Source: Bacteroidota bacterium (GTDB lineage: Bacteria > Bacteroidota > Ignavibacteria > Kapaibacteriales > UBA2268). Taken from it: DNA of 34,142 nt. The position numbers were made by a program, and so were the translations under genes. Position 1 is the stretch's first letter; every line of letters starts with the position of its first letter. The notes below the pieces were generated by a model, which saw only the letters and a program-made list of their open reading frames with translations, had not been told where the DNA came from and ran no database searches. The DNA is taken from NCBI GenBank assembly GCA_021780815.1, contig JAJXYC010000016.1:1-34142 (forward strand), given 5' to 3'. Below, piece by piece: positions 26,137 through 34,142 of the stretch.

Positions 26137-26208
26137 GGCGCATTCGTTTAGCGGATAGGACGCTGGCCTCTCACGCCGGTAACAGGGGTTCGATTCCCCT
26201 ATGCGCTA
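26137..26208 (+). tRNA. tRNA-Glu (anticodon CTC)
   Basis: A full cloverleaf: acceptor GGCGCAT (26137-26143) pairs with ATGCGCT (26201-26207) with a first G-U pair; D arm GTTT...GGAC; anticodon stem CTGGC/GCCGG around the loop CTCTCAC (anticodon CTC, reads GAG); T arm AGGGG-TTCGATT-CCCCT; discriminator A at 26208. CCA is not encoded. It marks the border between conserved genes and an accessory island, as tRNA 3' ends are common integration sites. Confidence 0.95.
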
Positions 26209-26386
26209 CTGGAACAAAAACTCTGCATTCTAGTCTCGCTCGCATATCAATCCATTCGAGGCTTTTAAATTTATTCTTAATTCAAGTCTAAACAGTTTTC
26301 TAAACAGTTTTTTTTTCAAAATATATTATTTTTTTATTTATACTTTTTTGTTATTTTTGTAGTAAATTTAAATAATTATTTTTTTT
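26209..26386. other. Non-coding stretch after tRNA-Glu
   Basis: 178 bases. It holds two tandem copies of the 12-mer TCTAAACAGTTT (26287-26298, 26299-26310) followed by a T-run, and a possible -7 box TATTTTTG at 26352-26359, 27 bases before the next start codon. Confidence 0.5.
26287..26310 (+). repeat. Tandem 12-mer TCTAAACAGTTT, two copies
   Basis: Two exact adjacent copies, about 80 bases from the tRNA 3' end. Integrase arm-type or excisionase sites lie at such places in integrative elements, but no match to a known site can be claimed. Confidence 0.7.
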
Positions 26387-27502
26387 ATGCCTAATTTTGC
26401 TTTTGAATTAATAGATTTGATGGACTTTAATCCTAATATTTTAAGGATAAAGATCTCTGCTCGAGATCAAAGCTTTGATGGACTTACCAATAGATTGAAT
26501 TATTTTTTTGAATATATTATTAAATTTGATACAGATTTTACAAAAGATAATGTAACATATTTAATAAATGAATTTTGCAATAATTTATTTTATGATATAT
26601 ATTTAAACTTCTATTACTACAATTTTACTGAATTTTATGGTAAATTTAATGAATTACAAGAAAATTTTAATAAACTATATAAAGTAAATAATCAAATAAT
26701 TGCATCAAGTATTTATCGAGAATTAATTCAAAATGTAGAATCATTATTTGAATTTTATGAAAAAATATTTGAGTGCTTTTCTACAAATTTTTTAAATAAA
26801 CAAGAAAAAAACATATTTCGTATTAAAGTATTTAATATTAAAGATTTTATGGATGTTTTTTCTTTCGATTATATAATCGGATTAATCACAAATTTTGCTC
26901 TTCTTTTTCTTCATAAAGATAATATTAATGATTATTTTGAAGAAATTCGTATTAAAGCTGCTTCAGTCATTTCTGATACTTCTATTGTCGGATATTATGC
27001 AAAACTTGAAACAGCAAGGGTAAAGGTTGTAAAAAGTATAGAGGAATATGAAAATAACTATAACAACTCCTTAAAAGACCAACCTAATCAAAAATTATCA
27101 AATAGTTATCAAAATAGGCAAGAAGAAATTGAAACTAAAAAAAACAGAATATCAAATGAATTGTACAGACTTTTATCAACATATGGAATGCAAGCAGAAC
27201 AAAATGATTTTGACAGCTTTTTAAGAGGAAAAGTAAAAAATTTGAAATTTCAAAGAAATAAATCCAAAATATTTCTTCATAATTATGAATTTGGATTTAT
27301 ACTTTATAATATTAACAAAGTTTTCTATGAATTTAAATCGAAAGAATGCTCTATAATAATTTATGAGAACGGTCATTCAAAATTATTCAAATATGAGAAG
27401 TTAAAAGATGCTTTGAGACCATTTCACATGGATTTAAGCAAGAAAATAATAAGAACTGATTTTTTTATAATTTATCAATACATATTAAATAATTTTAATT
27501 AA
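26387..27502 (+). CDS. Hypothetical protein beside tRNA-Glu, no family recognised
   Basis: 371 residues, no signal peptide and no membrane segment. The chain is rich in Phe, Tyr, Asn and Ile and looks largely alpha-helical. Residues about 205-275 are charged and repetitive in spacing (SIEEYENNYNN, RQEEIETKKNRISNELYRLL), consistent with a coiled coil. The C-terminal part has short strand-like segments (GFILYNI, CSIIIYENG). It has no tyrosine-recombinase signature (no R...HxxR...Y set), so it is not a hidden integrase. Its strong AT bias and its place between the tRNA and the excisionase-like gene suggest a mobile-element accessory protein. No ribosome site is visible before the ATG; the leader is a T-run. 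Confidence 0.7.
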   Translation: MPNFAFELIDLMDFNPNILRIKISARDQSFDGLTNRLNYFFEYIIKFDTDFTKDNVTYLINEFCNNLFYDIYLNFYYYNFTEFYGKFNELQENFNKLYKVNNQIIASSIYRELIQNVESLFEFYEKIFECFSTNFLNKQEKNIFRIKVFNIKDFMDVFSFDYIIGLITNFALLFLHKDNINDYFEEIRIKAASVISDTSIVGYYAKLETARVKVVKSIEEYENNYNNSLKDQPNQKLSNSYQNRQEEIETKKNRISNELYRLLSTYGMQAEQNDFDSFLRGKVKNLKFQRNKSKIFLHNYEFGFILYNINKVFYEFKSKECSIIIYENGHSKLFKYEKLKDALRPFHMDLSKKIIRTDFFIIYQYILNNFN

Positions 27503-27551: not shown

Positions 27552-27659
27552 GTTAACAAGCCTCCAATACAAACACCAGTACTACTATTTCAACCTTCGA
27601 CAAAAAAATGAAAAAAAATGAAATTAACCCTATAATATTTGAATAAATTTGCATTATTA

Positions 27660-27681
27660 ATTTTTGCAAAATTTTTGCAAA
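27660..27681. repeat. Tandem 11-mer ATTTTTGCAAA, two copies
   Basis: Two exact adjacent copies, each containing the palindrome TTTGCAAA, 11 bases apart (one helical turn). They sit between a -7-like box and the start codon at 27706, a natural place for an operator. Confidence 0.7.
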
Positions 27682-27705
27682 ATTATTAAAATATAATGAG
27701 GTAAT

Positions 27706-28029
27706 ATGATTGCAAAAAAACTTGAAATTGAAAATATTTCAATAGAAGAATTAGAGATGCTAATTCGCAAAGTTACTCGGGAGGAAATACAAAATGTTTC
27801 TCATTCAGAAAACAAAAACAATCAATACACAACTGAGGAGAAAATGATTCCAAGAAAGAAGTTTCTTAAGATGATTGGGAAAAGTGAAAGTTGGTTGAGT
27901 AAAAACATGAGGGATAATAAAATCCCATTTCACAAAGTTCGCAGAAGTATATTCTTCAACTTAGAAGAAGTTTTACAAAACAGTACAATTACAGAAATAA
28001 AAAAGAAATTGAGATGTAAACATGAATAG
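27706..28029 (+). CDS. Excisionase-like HTH DNA-binding protein
   Basis: 107 residues. The N-terminal third is acidic and helical. Residues about 47-95 (MIPRKKFLKMIGKSESWLSK, then IPFHKVRRSIFFNLEEV) fit the MerR-like helix-turn-helix/excisionase fold (HTH_17): a helix pair followed by a beta-hairpin wing and the phrase in which a conserved residue reads the side of the site. Such proteins control excision or operon expression in integrative elements. A good ribosome site (GAGG) precedes the ATG. First gene of a tightly overlapped operon: its end overlaps the next ORF by 8 bases. Confidence 0.78.
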   Translation: MIAKKLEIENISIEELEMLIRKVTREEIQNVSHSENKNNQYTTEEKMIPRKKFLKMIGKSESWLSKNMRDNKIPFHKVRRSIFFNLEEVLQNSTITEIKKKLRCKHE

Positions 28030-28204: not shown

Positions 28205-28368
28205 GAAACTTCCAAATTAACGAAAATCTCCTTGCTACAAAACAGCAAGGAGAAGAGAAAACAAAAATTACAACAGCAAAGAATTTTAAAAATTATCCTG
28301 AAAGGTTTTGTGAAACTTTACAAATCAGAGAAATCATTGCAAAAAACTTTGGAGGTATAAATGTATAA
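28201..28368 (+). CDS. Tiny ORF whose start duplicates that of the primase gene
   Basis: 55 residues from ATG 28201 to TAA 28368. GGGAG precedes the ATG. It overlaps the previous ORF by 4 bases (ATGA) and the primase gene by 8. Its first 54 bases are identical at 38 positions to the first 54 of the primase gene, and both proteins share Asn3, NLLA (9-12) and Gln16-Gly17. The remainder has no counterpart I can see. It may be a leader peptide that couples or limits translation of the primase, or the remnant of a duplicated gene start. Confidence 0.6.
   Translation: MRNFQINENLLATKQQGEEKTKITTAKNFKNYPERFCETLQIREIIAKNFGGINV
28227..28253 (+). promoter_or_regulatory. Start-proximal hairpin 1 (tiny ORF)
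   Basis: TCTCCTTGCT (28227-28236), 7-base loop ACAAAAC, AGCAAGGAGA (28244-28253). The CTCCTTGCT arm begins exactly 27 bases after ATG 28201. The arm also resembles an anti-Shine-Dalgarno sequence pairing with AGGAG. Confidence 0.75.
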
Positions 28369-30595
28369 CATCCTCAATAAAGGTAACCTCCTTGCCAGAA
28401 CACGGCAAGGAGATTTGATAGCAGAATACATATATCGACAAAAGGGATTAGAATTTTCAATAAATAAATCTATAAAAAATCCTTTTTACAAAGATACAAA
28501 ACCCAGTGTACGTTTTTCAATTCAAAATAACATATTAGTTTATAACGACTTTGGTAATCAGAATTACAAAGGGAATATTTTCGATTTTGCAAAGTTATTT
28601 TGGAATGAAAATAATTTCTACAATCTATTGAAGAAAATCAATCAAGACTTGCGGTTAAATTTGACAGAAAAGCAAAGACCAGAATTACCTGTCCAAGAAA
28701 GAAGATTTTCAAACTCTGACATTTCATGTTGGAAACAGTATGGGATTGATTATGAACAATTAAATAAATATGGAGTAATATCTGTTCAATCATATCAATC
28801 GAGAAACAGAACCTTTTTAACTCCAGAGAATAAAAATGTATTTGCCTACAATACCAATAAAAATTGTTTCAAGATATACAGACCAAAAGAACTGAAGTAT
28901 AAATTTTTCTGGATTGGAGAAAAACCCAAAAATTTCATATTTGGATTCGAGCAATTAGATGATACTGGTGAAGTATTATTTATTACTGGTGGCGAAAAAG
29001 ATGTAATTACACTGAACTCACATAATTACAATGCAATTTCCTTAAATTCAGAAACAACAAATAATATAGATAATGAAATATTAACAGAGCTGAAAGGTAG
29101 ATTCAGTTTTATTTTTGTCCTTTTCGATAATGATGCGACAGGATTAAAGTCCTCAAAATTGCTCTCAGAAAAATATGGATTCGAAGAAATTAATCTTAAA
29201 CCAATTCCTAATGATAAAGCAAAGGATATATCAGACTATTTTGCTTATTTTTACAAAAACAAAGATAATACTTACTTTACAAAGGAAATATTCCAAGATA
29301 TAATTAATGAGAAACTAAAACCACTCAAAATAAATAAATATCGTTTCCCTGATTCAGTTTATCAGGAACTGCCTGAATTCTTTACAAGTTTATTAGAACC
29401 ATTCAAAGAACAACAACAAAGGGACATTATTCTTATGTCGAGCCTTGTTGTAATGAGTGATATATTCAATAATGTATATGGACTTTATGATAAGCAAAAG
29501 ATTTATCCAAATTTCTATACATTTATTATTGGAGAAGCCTCTTCAGGAAAAGGTATTATTTCAAGTGTAAAATATTTGGGAAATCAAATTCATGATGAAT
29601 TGATTAAAACAAGCAGAGAAAAGTTTCAAGAATTTAAATCCAAATCTGAGAAAGAAAAAAGGGAAGAATTAATGAAATGGGAATTACTTTATCTTCCAGC
29701 TAATTCAACTTCAGCAGGAATTTATGAATTGATTTACAATAATGGTGGGCATGGAATAATATTTGAAACCGAAGGAGACACTCTTACCAATTCTTTTAAT
29801 AATGAAATGTCCAATTTTAGTGATTTATTACGAAAGGCATTTCATCACGAAACAGTTAGTTCCTTTCGGAAAACAACAAAAGAATATTTCAATGTAGAAG
29901 AGCCAAAATTATCATGTCTGTTAACAGGTACCCCTAATCAAGTAACTGCTTTAATACCGAATACTGAAAACGGAACATTTTCAAGATTTGTATATTACAT
30001 TTTGGAAAGTAATCCAATTATCCGAGATGTATTTTCAGAAGAAAAAGATTTGAGTGAGCATTTTAAAAAATTCGGTGAAGAATTATTCTTGCTTTACTTT
30101 ATTTCACGAGAATCAACAAAAGAATGGAAATTTAAACTAACAAAAGACCAAGAGAATTTATTCCTGAATTTCCTTAAAGAACAAAACGAAAATCTCATTT
30201 TTAATTTTGGAGAACAATTATCTCAATCAGTTAAAAGATTAGGTGTTGTTCTTTATAGAATAATGATGATACTAACAGCATCAGCTGATAATTACAAATC
30301 CGAAGAATTAATTTGTCGTGATGAACATTTCAAAATAACTTTGGAAATTGGTATAGTACTTATTGAGCATTTAAAGAAAATGTCTCGAGTAATTCCACTA
30401 CATGATCTAAAACTGACAAGTAATTATGAAATAACTTTATATCAGAAGTTACCACCTGAATTCAAAAGAAGTGAAGCAGTTATGATAGCAAATACAAATA
30501 AGATTTCAGCATCAACACTTGACAGATTATTGAAGAAAGAAAATTTGATAGAAAAAGTAAAACAAGGCGAATATCGCAAAAAAATAGCAAAATAA
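28361..30595 (+). CDS. Toprim/DUF3987 primase-helicase of a mobile element
   Basis: 744 residues, probably priming and unwinding DNA for element replication. Order: a CHC2-like region (about 38-85: NPFYKDTKPSVRFSI, then GNIFDFAKLFW) that lacks the zinc cysteines; a Toprim domain (about 204-300) with GGEKD (210-214), FDNDATG (255-261) and KDISDYF (288-294); a DUF3987-type ATPase with Walker A GEASSGKG (391-398), Walker B-like GIIFETEGD (465-473) and LLTGTPNQ (520-527); and a C-terminal winged-helix-like part (about 692-740). GGAGG lies 5 bases before the ATG, the strongest ribosome site on the island. Overlaps the tiny ORF by 8 bases. A large stem-loop follows the stop. Confidence 0.88.
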   Translation: MYNILNKGNLLARTRQGDLIAEYIYRQKGLEFSINKSIKNPFYKDTKPSVRFSIQNNILVYNDFGNQNYKGNIFDFAKLFWNENNFYNLLKKINQDLRLNLTEKQRPELPVQERRFSNSDISCWKQYGIDYEQLNKYGVISVQSYQSRNRTFLTPENKNVFAYNTNKNCFKIYRPKELKYKFFWIGEKPKNFIFGFEQLDDTGEVLFITGGEKDVITLNSHNYNAISLNSETTNNIDNEILTELKGRFSFIFVLFDNDATGLKSSKLLSEKYGFEEINLKPIPNDKAKDISDYFAYFYKNKDNTYFTKEIFQDIINEKLKPLKINKYRFPDSVYQELPEFFTSLLEPFKEQQQRDIILMSSLVVMSDIFNNVYGLYDKQKIYPNFYTFIIGEASSGKGIISSVKYLGNQIHDELIKTSREKFQEFKSKSEKEKREELMKWELLYLPANSTSAGIYELIYNNGGHGIIFETEGDTLTNSFNNEMSNFSDLLRKAFHHETVSSFRKTTKEYFNVEEPKLSCLLTGTPNQVTALIPNTENGTFSRFVYYILESNPIIRDVFSEEKDLSEHFKKFGEELFLLYFISRESTKEWKFKLTKDQENLFLNFLKEQNENLIFNFGEQLSQSVKRLGVVLYRIMMILTASADNYKSEELICRDEHFKITLEIGIVLIEHLKKMSRVIPLHDLKLTSNYEITLYQKLPPEFKRSEAVMIANTNKISASTLDRLLKKENLIEKVKQGEYRKKIAK
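28388..28412 (+). promoter_or_regulatory. Start-proximal hairpin 2 (primase gene)
   Basis: CTCCTTGCC (28388-28396), 7-base loop AGAACAC, GGCAAGGAG (28404-28412). It begins exactly 27 bases after ATG 28361, the same offset as hairpin 1, and differs from it by a T-A to C-G exchange at the loop-closing pair. Confidence 0.75.
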
Positions 30596-30601
30596 TACTC
30601 G

Positions 30602-30662
30602 ATGACAAAATGATAAAATGACAAAATTGTCTTTTTGTCATTTTGTCAAGGGTATTTTTTTT
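30602..30662 (+). terminator. Long stem-loop after the primase gene
   Basis: AAAATGACAAAA (30615-30626), loop TTGTCT, TTTTGTCATTTT (30633-30644) form a perfect 12-bp stem, extended by four more pairs (one U-G) to 30611 and 30648. A T-run follows at about 30655. The left side comprises three 8-mers: ATGACAAA, ATGATAAA, ATGACAAA (30602-30625). It may be both a terminator and an operator for the XRE gene. Confidence 0.65.
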
Positions 30663-30708: not shown

Positions 30709-30945
30709 ATGACAGGTAAAAATTTTAAATTAATAAGACGAGCAAACGGTATCACTCAGATGCAAATTGCTGAAATATTTGGCTTTAAGTCAACAACTCC
30801 GATTCATAATATTGAACGTAGGAGCGAAGTGCATAGTAAGTACTCAAATAAGCTAAAAGAAATGCTTAATTTACAATTTAATAACTCAGAAGAGTATCAA
30901 AGGTATTTAATACATTGCCAAAAAATACTGAAATGGGATACGTAA
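30709..30945 (+). CDS. XRE-family helix-turn-helix regulator
   Basis: 78 residues. The N-terminal part (about 5-55) fits a Cro/CI-type helix-turn-helix: FKLIRRANGITQMQIAEIFG, followed by TTPIHNIERRS as recognition helix and the next turn. The rest is a short helical tail, perhaps for dimerisation. AGGAG is well placed before the ATG. Separated from the primase gene by a strong stem-loop and followed by an excellent terminator, so it is probably its own transcription unit. Likely a regulator of the element; candidate operators are the 8-mer repeats at 30602-30649 and the 11-mers at 27660-27681. Confidence 0.82.
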   Translation: MTGKNFKLIRRANGITQMQIAEIFGFKSTTPIHNIERRSEVHSKYSNKLKEMLNLQFNNSEEYQRYLIHCQKILKWDT

Positions 30946-31022: not shown

Positions 31023-31241
31023 GCTTAAATAATCATCTTAAAATCGATAAAAAAATATTTCGATATGTTTCGACTGAAAAAAATAGGTTTAAACTTTTTC
31101 AAAGAATTTTTAGTAAATTAAAAAAAATAATAATCCGAAAAAATTTCTTAAAAAATTTATCAAAATTTTTGGGAAAATAAAAAAAAATAAAAATATTAAA
31201 AAATCATTTTTGAAGAAAGTTGATATTTTTCCCAAATTATT

Positions 31242-31332
31242 ATCTTAAAATACTCTTAATTTCTCTTAAATTTCTCTTAAACCCTCTTATTTACCTTTTT
31301 TTACTCTTAAATTACTCATAATGTCCTCTTAA
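31242..31332 (+). repeat. Helically phased CTCTTAA array
   Basis: Exact CTCTTAA at 31253, 31263, 31274, 31304 and 31326; one-mismatch copies ATCTTAA at 31242, CTCTTAT at 31284 and CTCATAA at 31315; a degenerate position at 31294. Steps between starts are 11, 10, 11, 10, 10, 10, 11 and 11, a mean near 10.5 bases, the pitch of B-DNA. Spacers are 3-4 AT-rich bases. Confidence 0.85.
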
Positions 31333-31752
31333 TGTATCCCAAATAGTCATATCCAAAAATTACTCGAAAAATTACCTTGAAATTCTTGAATTTTGCAGAA
31401 AATATGTAAAAAAAATGTGTAGGTACAAGTTTTTTTAATAATTTTTTCAAGTTCCACAAAATTCATACTGAGTTTTTGTTTAATCCCTTTTGACATATTA
31501 AAAATTTCTCTTTCTCACCTTAATAGAAAAAAACTGCCTCCACAAATTCTCTATAAGAAGAAAATTTGCACCAATTGAATAGTTAAGTATTCCCACAGAA
31601 GAAAATTGAATATAATTGATATATGTACGTTTAGAGAGATTTCGATAAAATTTATTTATATTTTTCGATTTTTTTTCAAAATTATCAGTATTTTCTCACT
31701 TTCCAGACATATTAGGTCGCAGTAAATGTTAATTTTGTAATGGCATTAATAC

Positions 31753-31779
31753 TGCAAATATATTTAATAAATATTTGCA
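31753..31779. repeat. Inverted repeat TGCAAATAT/ATATTTGCA
   Basis: Perfect 9-base arms at 31753-31761 and 31771-31779 around a 9-base AT spacer, flanked on both sides by copies of TAATTTTGTAAT. It shares the core GCAAA with the operator-like repeats at 27660-27681. Confidence 0.55.
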
Positions 31780-31959
31780 AATGTAGAAATATACTTTTTG
31801 CAGTTAATTATATTATTGAATTTATTAGGAAATAATTTTGTAATTTACATTTATTTTTTTTTCGATTCCAATGTTTATAAAATCAATATAAATATAGAAT
31901 AGAATGACAGTGTATTTTTTGCTGCAGGAAAGATAAAATAAAGGAACACAATATAGTGA

Positions 31960-32105: not shown

Positions 32106-33569
32106 ATGTTTGAGCAGACTTTCAAGAACATAGATGATATTTTACACAAAGATGCTGGTTGTAGCAGTGAACTGGATTATGTTGAACAAACCAGTTGGAT
32201 TTTATTCCTCAAATATCTTGACGACTTGGAACATGACCGAGCAACTATAGCTGAACTGACTGGAAAAACTTACATCCCAATTGTAGATTCTGAGTACCGA
32301 TGGACAACGTGGGCAGCACCAAAAATTAAAAATGGTAACGGAAGTTTAAAAATTGACCATAATGCTCTGACTGGTGATGACCTATCAGACTTTGTAAATA
32401 ATAGATTATTTCCTTATCTGAAAAGTTTTAAACATTCTGCTCAAGGTGCTGACACCATTGAATATAAAATCGGCGAAATTTTTAGCGAACTGAAAAACCG
32501 CTTACAAAGTGGTTATAATCTTCGTGAAGTGATTAACCTTATTGATGAGTTACGTTTTCGCACACATGCAGAAAAGCACGAGATGAGCCACTTATACGAA
32601 GCAAAAATCAAAAATATGGGTAATGCTGGTCGAAATGGTGGTGAATACTATACTCCCAGACCTCTTATTACAACAATTGTGAAGGTCGTTGCTCCTCAAA
32701 TTGGTAATAAAATTTATGATGGTGCTTGTGGTTCGGCAGGTTTCCTTTGTGAAGCATTTAATTATCTGAAGCATGGAAAGTCACTTTCAACAAGGGAAAG
32801 CGAAATTTTGCAGAAAAATTCATTTTATGGAAAAGAGAAAAAGTCTTTGGCTTATATCATCGGAATTATGAATATGATTTTGCATGGTATTGAAGCTCCG
32901 AATATTATCCATACAAATACTCTGGCTGAAAATCTCGCTGATATTCAGGAAAAAGACCGTTTTGATGTTGTTCTTGCTAATCCTCCTTTTGGTGGCAAAG
33001 AACGTCAGGAAATGCAACAGAATTTTCCAATTAAAACGGGTGAAACTGCTTCGCTCTTTTTACAACATTTTATTAAGATTTTGAAAGCTGGTGGTACAGC
33101 AGGAGTTGTTATCAAGAATACTTTTTTGAGTAATACCGATAATGCCACAGTTGCTATTCGTAAGACATTACTTGAGAGCTGCAATTTACATACAGTTCTT
33201 GATTTGCCTGGTGGTACATTCACAGGTGCAGGAGTAAAAACAGTTGTGCTTTTCTTTGAAAAAGGAAGTCCTACTCAAAATGTATGGTTTTATCAATTGA
33301 ATCTGGATAGGAATTTGGGCAAGACAAATCCACTTAATGAAAATGATTTGGCAGAATTTGTTGAATTGCAAAAGACTTTTGCTAATAGTGATAATTCCTG
33401 GACTATTGATATAAAAGATGTTGACCAAAGTACGTTTGATTTAAGTGTTAAGAATCCTAATAAAAAAGAAGTGGTTCGGCTACGCTCACCAAACGAGATT
33501 TTGGAAGAAATGAAAGCTTTGGATTTAGAAACTGCTGAAATCTTAAACTCAATTTCGGAATTGATATGA
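32106..33569 (+). CDS. hsdM: Type I restriction-modification DNA methyltransferase subunit
   Basis: Methylates adenine within the sequence chosen by the HsdS subunit and protects against the HsdR nuclease. 487 residues: an N-terminal helical HsdM domain (about 1-150, with SWILFLKYLDDLE), NGGEYYTPRPL (177-187), S-adenosylmethionine motif DGACGSAGF (205-213), catalytic NPPF (292-295) in ANPPFGGKERQ, and GVVIKNTFL further on. AAAGGA lies before the ATG. Its stop overlaps the start of the ORF6N gene (ATGA), so they are coupled. hsdS and hsdR are not in the window and probably follow. Codon use and base composition are less AT-extreme than in the primase operon, consistent with a different origin. 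Confidence 0.96.
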   Translation: MFEQTFKNIDDILHKDAGCSSELDYVEQTSWILFLKYLDDLEHDRATIAELTGKTYIPIVDSEYRWTTWAAPKIKNGNGSLKIDHNALTGDDLSDFVNNRLFPYLKSFKHSAQGADTIEYKIGEIFSELKNRLQSGYNLREVINLIDELRFRTHAEKHEMSHLYEAKIKNMGNAGRNGGEYYTPRPLITTIVKVVAPQIGNKIYDGACGSAGFLCEAFNYLKHGKSLSTRESEILQKNSFYGKEKKSLAYIIGIMNMILHGIEAPNIIHTNTLAENLADIQEKDRFDVVLANPPFGGKERQEMQQNFPIKTGETASLFLQHFIKILKAGGTAGVVIKNTFLSNTDNATVAIRKTLLESCNLHTVLDLPGGTFTGAGVKTVVLFFEKGSPTQNVWFYQLNLDRNLGKTNPLNENDLAEFVELQKTFANSDNSWTIDIKDVDQSTFDLSVKNPNKKEVVRLRSPNEILEEMKALDLETAEILNSISELI

Positions 33570-34142
33570 GTAAAGAAATTATCACAAATCAAATTCAGAT
33601 TGATAATTGGATATACACAATCCGTGAAAAGCAAGTCATGGTTGATTTTCATTTGGCAGAATTATATGAAGTAGAAACAAAAAGAATTAATGAGCAGGTA
33701 AAACGTAATCAAGACAGATTTCCTGAACGATTTATGTTCCAACTAACTAAAGAAGAATGGGAAAACTTGAAGTCGCAAAATGCGACCTTAGAACTCAATA
33801 ATCTAAGGTCGCAAAATGCGACCTTAGAAAGTAAACAGGGAAAACATAGGAAGTATCTGCCTTATGTATTTACAGAACAAGGCGTTGCAATGCTATCTTC
33901 GGTATTGAAAAGTGATATTGCTGTTAAGGTTAGTATTCAAATAATGGATGCTTTTGTTAAAATGAGACAAATCCTTATAGAAAATTCATTGATTAATCAT
34001 CGCTTAGAAAAAATCGAAAGAAAACAACTCGATACCGACCAAAAATTCGAACAAGTCTTCAAAGCATTAGAAAGTAAAGATTCAATCCCTACGCAAGGTG
34101 TTTTCTTCGAAGGACAGATTTTTGATGCTTATGAACTTGCTT
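33566..34142 (+). CDS. ORF6N-domain protein (3' truncated by window)
   Basis: The frame runs open from ATG 33566 to the window end (192 codons). Residues 10-115 match the ORF6N DNA-binding domain of phage and mobile-element proteins: REKQVMVDFHLAELYEVETK, RFPERFMFQLTKEEW and YLPYVFTEQGVAMLSSVL. A helical stretch follows (about 130-175), then QGVFFEGQIFDAYEL, also usual in the family. A duplicated LKSQNATLE/LRSQNATLE stretch (about 69-88), encoded by near-perfect palindromes, interrupts the usual link between the EEW and YLPY segments. The ATG overlaps the hsdM stop by 4 bases. ORF6N-type genes often sit inside type I restriction loci; their role there is not established. Confidence 0.88.
   Translation, partial: MSKEIITNQIQIDNWIYTIREKQVMVDFHLAELYEVETKRINEQVKRNQDRFPERFMFQLTKEEWENLKSQNATLELNNLRSQNATLESKQGKHRKYLPYVFTEQGVAMLSSVLKSDIAVKVSIQIMDAFVKMRQILIENSLINHRLEKIERKQLDTDQKFEQVFKALESKDSIPTQGVFFEGQIFDAYELA
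33772..33829 (+). repeat. Duplicated palindromic unit inside the ORF6N gene
   Basis: A 22-base unit beginning GTCGCAAAATGCGACC occurs at 33772-33793 and 33808-33829 (period 36, in frame). The second copy lies in a palindrome with 12-base arms TCTAAGGTCGCA and TGCGACCTTAGA around AAA (33802-33828). Confidence 0.9.

Follow-up and report, generated by a model that had tools for sequence, protein, structure and literature searches.

Gene content of the island

The window, meaning here the whole stretch of DNA that was analysed (34,142 nt), comes from an uncultivated bacterium and carries a small mobile island in its right-hand part, with the array of CTCTTAA heptamers behind the replication gene. 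The features referred to below are as follows.

26137–26209, + strand: tRNA-Glu, left of the island genes
26309–26322, + strand: 14-base direct repeat T8CAAAAT, copy 1, a weak candidate for an island end
26387–27502, + strand: ORF of 371 aa without known family, positioned where related islands have their variable ORF
27659–27684: 2.4 copies of TTTTTGCAAAA at a spacing of 11 bases, immediately before the HTH_17 gene
27706–28029, + strand: HTH_17/excisionase-like winged-helix protein, 107 aa, the favoured candidate for binding the array
28361–30595, + strand: DUF3987 primase-helicase, 744 aa (PF13148, E 4.6e-48; DNA primase phrog_12622, E 1.8e-23)
30602–30648: three copies of ATGACAAA, then three of inverted TTGTCATT, between the primase and XRE genes
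30709–30945, + strand: small Cro/XRE-like repressor, 78 aa (phrog_7950, E 1e-4), an alternative candidate for binding the array
31051–31241: AT-rich left flank, 10–21% G+C per 100 bases
31242–31332, + strand: array of eight CTCTTAA-like heptamers, starting at 31242, 31253, 31263, 31274, 31284, 31304, 31315 and 31326
31669–31682, + strand: 14-base direct repeat T8CAAAAT, copy 2, 337 bases right of the array
31730–31840, + strand: two TAATTTTG elements, starting at 31730 and 31833, which resemble the −7 element of Pho promoters
32106–33569, + strand: type I restriction-modification methylase HsdM (PF02384, E 6.4e-64; PF12161, E 1.2e-9)

The array is situated between the small XRE-like gene, whose product also has a sub-threshold match to HTH_19 (E 0.0023), and hsdM, the next gene to the right at a distance of 774 bases. 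The two TAATTTTG elements are possible hsdM promoters. An ORF6N anti-repressor-type gene follows hsdM (33566–34141) and is cut by the contig end. The island is truncated on its right side by the end of the contig at 34142, and no integrase is found among the window ORFs.

Possible island ends were examined on both sides. The last 10 bases of the tRNA-Glu gene, a potential att site, have no second copy within the window. The T-rich 14-base repeat brackets the segment from the 371-aa ORF to the array (shuffles gave a median length of 11 and a 95% value of 13). In an empty-site comparison, four genomes of the same genus share the gene left of the tRNA, and nothing of the island side. In the AT-rich flank, the 100-base windows starting at 31051, 31101 and 31151 have 10–17% G+C, and an imperfect two-copy tandem repeat of 60 bases occupies nt 31078–31194. 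A search of Rfam returned a single match (mir-890, E 0.12), which lies under the gathering score and was taken as chance, and nt 31345–31645 fold no better than shuffled sequence (z 0.96).

The repeats at 30602–30648 may represent a terminator or an operator of the XRE-like protein. Tandem repeats of 8–9 bases are also found right behind the primase stop in two related islands (L015:8625–8665 and L016:9023–9056), and those of the window and L015 have inverted partners built on TGTCA/TGACA.

Sequence and phasing of the array

Five of the eight copies are exact (starts 31253, 31263, 31274, 31304 and 31326), and the other three differ by one base: ATCTTAA at 31242, CTCTTAT at 31284 and CTCATAA at 31315. 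Successive copies are separated by 11, 10, 11, 10, 20, 11 and 11 bases, or 84 bases over 8 turns, giving a mean period of 10.5. A recount thus confirmed the earlier note as to copy number, step length and period. The degenerate ninth site that it had also proposed, near 31294/31295, matches CTCTTAA in just 3–4 of seven letters, so this phase was counted as empty. The array is non-coding, as claimed previously, in that no ORF of at least 60 aa covers it; the small ORFs touching it are 33 aa (+ strand) and 47 aa (− strand) in length.

The density of the array exceeds chance. The surrounding 1,020 bases were simulated 1000 times with an order-2 Markov model, and heptamers with at least two G/C were counted per 100 bases; no word occurred more than four times, a value reached once, compared to 5 in the array, and ten shuffled copies of the whole window gave at most three. 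A detector requiring at least three exact copies at steps of 10–11 bases found no heptamer array in 3,343,120 bases of shuffled island sequence, and the same sequence held two 4-copy hexamer chains. Across the whole 2.63 Mb host genome, CTCTTAA-N2..6-CTCTTAA occurs at two places, both within the array (reversed control, one match). Equally dense phased heptamers in shuffled sequence, which the earlier note had named as a result that would refute it, were not obtained. The array is real, non-random and helically phased.

Related islands and their phased arrays

Relatives of the island were sought through the primase. None was found in viral contigs, nor in genome contigs with a single protein query, and phage and plasmid records gave partial matches only, less than 40% identical. 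Searching the genome contigs with a primase alignment recovered two island relatives. Six related stretches are considered here, all from the bacterial family of the host (L014, L015, L016, L018, L020 and L021). All six have the order variable ORF, HTH_17, primase, and most have a small HTH protein behind; an integrase stands in front in five and is absent next to the genes of L014, as in the window. The five islands with an integrase, which we take to be similar to the NBU1-type elements of Bacteroides, share with the window both this gene order and, after HTH_17, the succession of primase-helicase, small HTH protein and non-coding stretch. They differ from it in having an integrase next to these genes and in lacking the CTCTTAA array. 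The absence of the array from every related island was a result that the earlier note had said would speak against it, and the CTCTTAA array is indeed found in none of those fetched.

Phased arrays of other words are present in these islands, in the gap that separates the variable ORF from the HTH_17 gene: five GAAGCAA at 10 bases in L018 (14084–14144), three ATACATCCTTA at 11 bases in L020 (6696–6732), three TTACAT at 10 bases in L014 (2703–2730) and three TACAAC in L016 (6269–6296). Two further arrays upstream of HTH_17 genes are L098:685–791 and L104:4189–4215. As the words differ between islands, no shared motif ties the arrays to one protein.

The frequency of such arrays was determined in 39 loci (8 around primase matches and 31 around integrase matches) plus the window. 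Genes were called by a simple rule of our own, and the resulting 324 intergenic gaps of 60–1500 bases in the 40 sequences were scored for hexamer chains at 10–11 (or 20–22) bases against 300 first-order shuffles per gap. At p ≤ 0.01, arrays were detected in 6 of the 23 gaps that precede HTH_17 genes, in 2 of the 37 that precede integrase genes and in 4 of the 264 other gaps (Fisher 2.3e-5 for HTH_17 and 0.16 for integrase), and these p-values, like those that follow, are optimistic because the arrays of L018 and L020 were already known when the test was devised and some loci come from the same genus. The corresponding counts were 6/23, 6/37 and 6/264 at p ≤ 0.02 (Fisher 9e-5 and 1.2e-3), and 6/23, 9/37 and 11/264 at p ≤ 0.05 (9e-4 and 1.5e-4). 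An earlier version with 100 shuffles, in which integrase gaps were not separate (5/23 vs 5/301), is superseded. Phased arrays are commoner upstream of HTH_17 genes than elsewhere, and the same holds more weakly for integrase genes. The remaining 17 of the 23 HTH_17-upstream gaps have no array at p ≤ 0.01. The CTCTTAA array itself is one of the four 'other' gaps at this level, and the gap preceding the HTH_17 gene of the window itself gave p 0.12 and contains no CTCTTAA.

Weaker phased repeats were seen upstream of the integrases of L081, L098, L080, L102, L101, L087, L090 and L086, and also at L021:9976–10017. Gaps upstream of integrases are where arm-type or excisionase sites are expected.

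Predicted curvature

Curvature was predicted by a single model, one published wedge set. According to this prediction, curvature over 105 bases peaks within the window at nt 31224–31328, in agreement with the earlier suggestion that the phased AT spacers might bend the DNA. The array stands at the 99.9th percentile of length-matched intergenic DNA, as does that of L018, while the other arrays upstream of HTH_17 genes range from percentile 0.55 to 0.98 (0.55–0.91 in four of six).

Given that the predicted curvature is the highest in the window, that none of 1000 shuffles was equally curved and that two TAATTTTG elements lie downstream, the array could be purely structural, either a bend that activates or insulates hsdM promoters at 31730/31833, or a set of functionless repeats. 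This is improbable. When the heptamer was permuted within the same phases, 5.7% of 210 versions were as curved as the array, which means that the curvature is mostly a product of the phasing and that the word was not clearly chosen for it. In addition, the C and TTAA positions are kept across the copies and the spacers are free, a pattern that suggests reading by a protein.

A replication origin as an alternative

Together, the array, the AT-rich stretch and the primase-helicase gene have the layout of an iteron origin, and the origins of plasmids and phage-inducible islands likewise combine direct repeats, AT-rich DNA and a primase-helicase gene. The array might therefore represent iterons of an island replication origin beside an unwinding stretch, bound by the primase-helicase (which has a winged-helix-like C-terminus) or by the XRE protein. 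The AT-rich flank directly left of the array and the primase-helicase gene on the island, on which the earlier note had based its proposal of an iteron-like origin, are both real. In related islands, too, the small HTH gene is followed by a long non-coding stretch, which contains a weak 21-base TAAGTA repeat in L016 and a weak 10-base array (p 0.066) in L021. These are different repeats, however, found in these two only; the repeats of the window do not recur at the same place in related replicons, nor do the islands have any other repeat in common there (L014, p 0.11), and L015 is almost without such a stretch. A second repeat set, at 30602–30648, lies nearer to the primase gene, and the window repeat is short, the iterons of well-known plasmids being longer than its heptamers. 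An origin is unlikely on balance.

Occurrence of CTCTTAA repeats elsewhere

Among 123 genomes of the order, CTCTTAA-N3..4-CTCTTAA gave eight matches in six genomes, fewer than the reversed control, and those inspected were pairs, not arrays. Exact CTCTTAA triples occur in two of 391 genomes of the class, the host and G265 (matches to the reversed control were mostly in one genome, G027). The G265 triple lies between a gene that by eye looks like pstS, a 50-aa piece of which gave no Pfam match, and a CarbopepD_reg-domain gene.

Viral contigs contain 37 CTCTTAA stretches compared to 8 for the reversed control. They are a mixture of tandem microsatellite-like runs, sites before ThyX (Thy1) genes and unrelated intergenic places. 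At the ThyX sites, CTCTTAA stands three times at 11-base steps, no more than about 210 bases from the phage gene that follows (L164, L182, L187, L199, L168, L174 and L191).

Comparison with Pho boxes

Promoters of phosphate genes in the host's family contain TCTTAAC-type half-sites at 11-base steps; a run of as many as four CTTAA half-sites leads, after a spacer of five bases, to [TC]ANNTTTG. Clear examples precede phosphate genes at L110, L109, L144, L121, L215 and L210. In the host genome, Pho-type sites were found before pstS (PF12849) and before a DUF47/PHO4 transporter pair. The array could accordingly be a tandem site of this type, to which a PhoB-family regulator of the host binds head to tail on CTTAA half-sites, and it would then either place an island transcript under that regulator or titrate it.

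The likeness lies in the half-site. The array has CTTAA-type half-sites in direct repeat, as do the Pho boxes (PhoB/SphR) of the host's family and of cyanobacteria. TCTTAA-N4..5-TCTTAA occurs exactly at six places in the host genome, of which three are in the array, two are at the phosphate genes just named (pstS and the DUF47/PHO4 pair), and one is inside a 62-aa ORF, presumably that of ribosomal protein S21; the reversed control, with 13 matches, outnumbers the pattern. Of 4000 random heptamer arrays, only 1.3–1.8% match the Pho matrix as closely as the array does, so that it is more Pho-like than about 98% of them (for this and the best-chain comparison below, the matrix excludes four half-sites of L115 that are used in the strict model). 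Because of this low rate and the three pairs out of six, the shared core is noteworthy. The only other genome of the class with an exact CTCTTAA triple has it by a pstS-like gene, as described above. Furthermore, cyanobacterial Pho boxes such as CTTAATTT and CTTAAATT, among the examples in an excerpt of PMC1906773, have no C after CTTAA either.

Apart from simple repeats, six other in-step CTTAA triples occur in the host's family. Three precede PF12849 genes and a fourth, in G052, is 1.4 kb from one on the same contig. The two G015 sites precede proteins that by eye resemble a phosphate transporter and a PLP enzyme (60-aa pieces without a Pfam match). One of these sites, G015:C34:36705–36731, is a Pho-like box of three half-sites, 87 bases before a gene resembling, by eye, PLP-dependent acyltransferases of the sphingolipid type; such a box would fit lipid replacement under phosphate starvation.

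In its architecture the array departs from the family boxes, which have strict 11-base steps, usually four half-sites, a fixed −7 element, phosphate genes and little-curved DNA. The half-sites of the array score 7.37, 7.35, 6.1, 4.16, 2.24, 6.1, −0.49 and 4.29 against a training median of 8.6. Under the strict 11-base model with four sites the array scores 11.0, compared to 31.3–38.8 for the CTTAA half-sites at 9 of 13 phosphate-gene loci (the other four score 4.5–19.2), and is below the best locus in 634,482 bases of control sequence (20.5); allowing steps of 10 or 11 raises it to 25.0, where the top control reaches 25.4. Taken together, the best chains of 16 Pho-type loci contain 36 steps, of which 35 measure 11 bases; the steps in the best chain of the array are 11, 10 and 11. 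Sixteen bases after the last CTTAA start, where the −7 element [TC]ANNTTTG is expected, TAGTCATA stands instead (at 31344), and TANNTTTG does not occur on the + strand between 30941 and 31729. No phosphate gene adjoins the array, its neighbours being the XRE-like gene and hsdM. Pho promoters show little curvature, with a median at the 12th percentile (n = 11). The L020 island array has a higher Pho-matrix score (8.27 vs 4.39 for the window array), in a genome without a PF12849 match at E ≤ 1e-10.

Judged by its sequence, the array shares the Pho alphabet but not the Pho architecture. Of the proposed resemblance to PhoB/OmpR-type boxes, the CTTAA half-site core stands, and the steps, the −7 element and a phosphate gene do not, making a tandem Pho-type site distinctly unlikely. 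A more elaborate version is very improbable: the island would have taken over the phosphate alphabet of its host, with eight Pho-like half-sites moved from a period of 11 bases to one of 10.5, bending the DNA and capturing a phosphorylated PhoB-type regulator, thereby tying excision, replication or gene activity of the island to phosphate starvation or starving the host Pho regulon of its regulator. L020, with three CCTTAA at 11 bases before the HTH_17-primase operon, would then be a second case.

The HTH_17-like protein

An AlphaFold model of the window's HTH_17-like protein, built from a three-row alignment, predicts a winged helix (residues 51–90, pLDDT about 90). Its structural neighbours are lambda Xis (Z 5.5), RdfS (5.2), the GIsul2 excisionase (5.1), BldC (5.1) and Pukovnik Xis (5.0). 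All of these Z values are modest (below 8), and a terminase-related viral packaging chain (7lwr) reaches 5.1, equal to BldC; Foldseek with the same model gave no match at E ≤ 0.001. Pfam HTH_17 is found in six of seven island proteins, the window protein being the exception, which on its own has no Pfam match at E ≤ 0.01 (Phage_Cox, E 0.02; HTH_17, E 0.062). A profile of the seven proteins searched against PDB sequences has the AlpA-family 8c3t as its top match (E 1e-3), with BldC at 0.86. The small HTH_17-type protein thus models as an excisionase-like winged helix, with modest scores. It is the binder favoured below, and was already among the candidates listed in the earlier note.

A proposed operator of the excisionase type

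The reading we favour, tentatively and at somewhat less than an even chance, is that the array serves as an operator strip for a winged-helix protein of the recombination-directionality (RDF) type, similar to Xis, RdfS, Apl or BldC, and most likely for the island's own HTH_17 protein (27706–28029). It would most likely belong to a known kind of element, as a rather long representative. As described in the excerpted parts of PMC7498355, RDF operators consist of direct repeats about one turn apart, each taking one monomer, with cooperative binding that bends the DNA and spreads along it, and Apl has seven repeats at pR-pL. RdfS, which belongs to the HTH_17 group, is a filament-forming protein that binds to attP and to its own promoter (PMC11963761, in part), and BldC forms head-to-tail filaments on direct repeats, bending the DNA (PMC5859096, in part). 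The array, its phasing, the gene and the related islands fit this published binding mode, and for this reason the operator reading is preferred.

The array resembles the operators of Apl (phage 186), lambda Xis (X1-X1.5-X2 in attR), RdfS (ICEMlSym-R7A) and BldC (Streptomyces) in having several direct repeats about one turn apart. Its steps of 10–11 bases equal the one-turn spacing of Xis-type operators, and the mixture of 10 and 11 fits sites on the same face rather than a fixed step of 11. In those systems, as presumably in the window, the DNA is meant to be bent, and a small gene of the HTH_17 type, here predicted to encode a winged helix, is carried on the same element. There are also differences. 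The array has eight copies, against the seven reported for Apl at pR-pL in the excerpt cited above; its words have seven bases, against the 9-base repeats given for BldC at whiI; and they are better conserved than the low-specificity RDF operators described.

If the HTH_17 protein is the binder, one monomer would sit on each heptamer, head to tail, with all monomers on the same face of DNA that is already curved, and a bent nucleoprotein strip of about 8–9 turns would form on the array. The strip may serve to shape the DNA near the island end for excision, or to switch island transcription. Binding by this protein, a protein-made bend and the role of the array are all inferred.

That phased arrays are enriched in front of HTH_17 genes (6/23 vs 4/264) argues for an operator of this kind. 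Against it, the array is upstream of neither the HTH_17 gene nor an integrase. It is far from the HTH_17 gene and not at its promoter, and the nearest candidate for an island end is the weak 14-base repeat, 337 bases away. The distance from the HTH_17 gene and from any integrase, together with the missing right end of the island, is the main weakness of the operator reading.

Significance

The array carries a caution for annotation, since not every direct repeat of CTTAA in these genomes is a Pho box; the two can be told apart by step length and the −7 element. If the array is an operator of the excisionase type, then the small islands of the host's family with the order integrase, ORF, HTH_17, primase would carry visible, element-specific strips for excisionase filaments, and their operators could be found from sequence even though the words differ from island to island. 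Such islands would allow one to study how strongly cooperative proteins of low specificity select their sites and change them.
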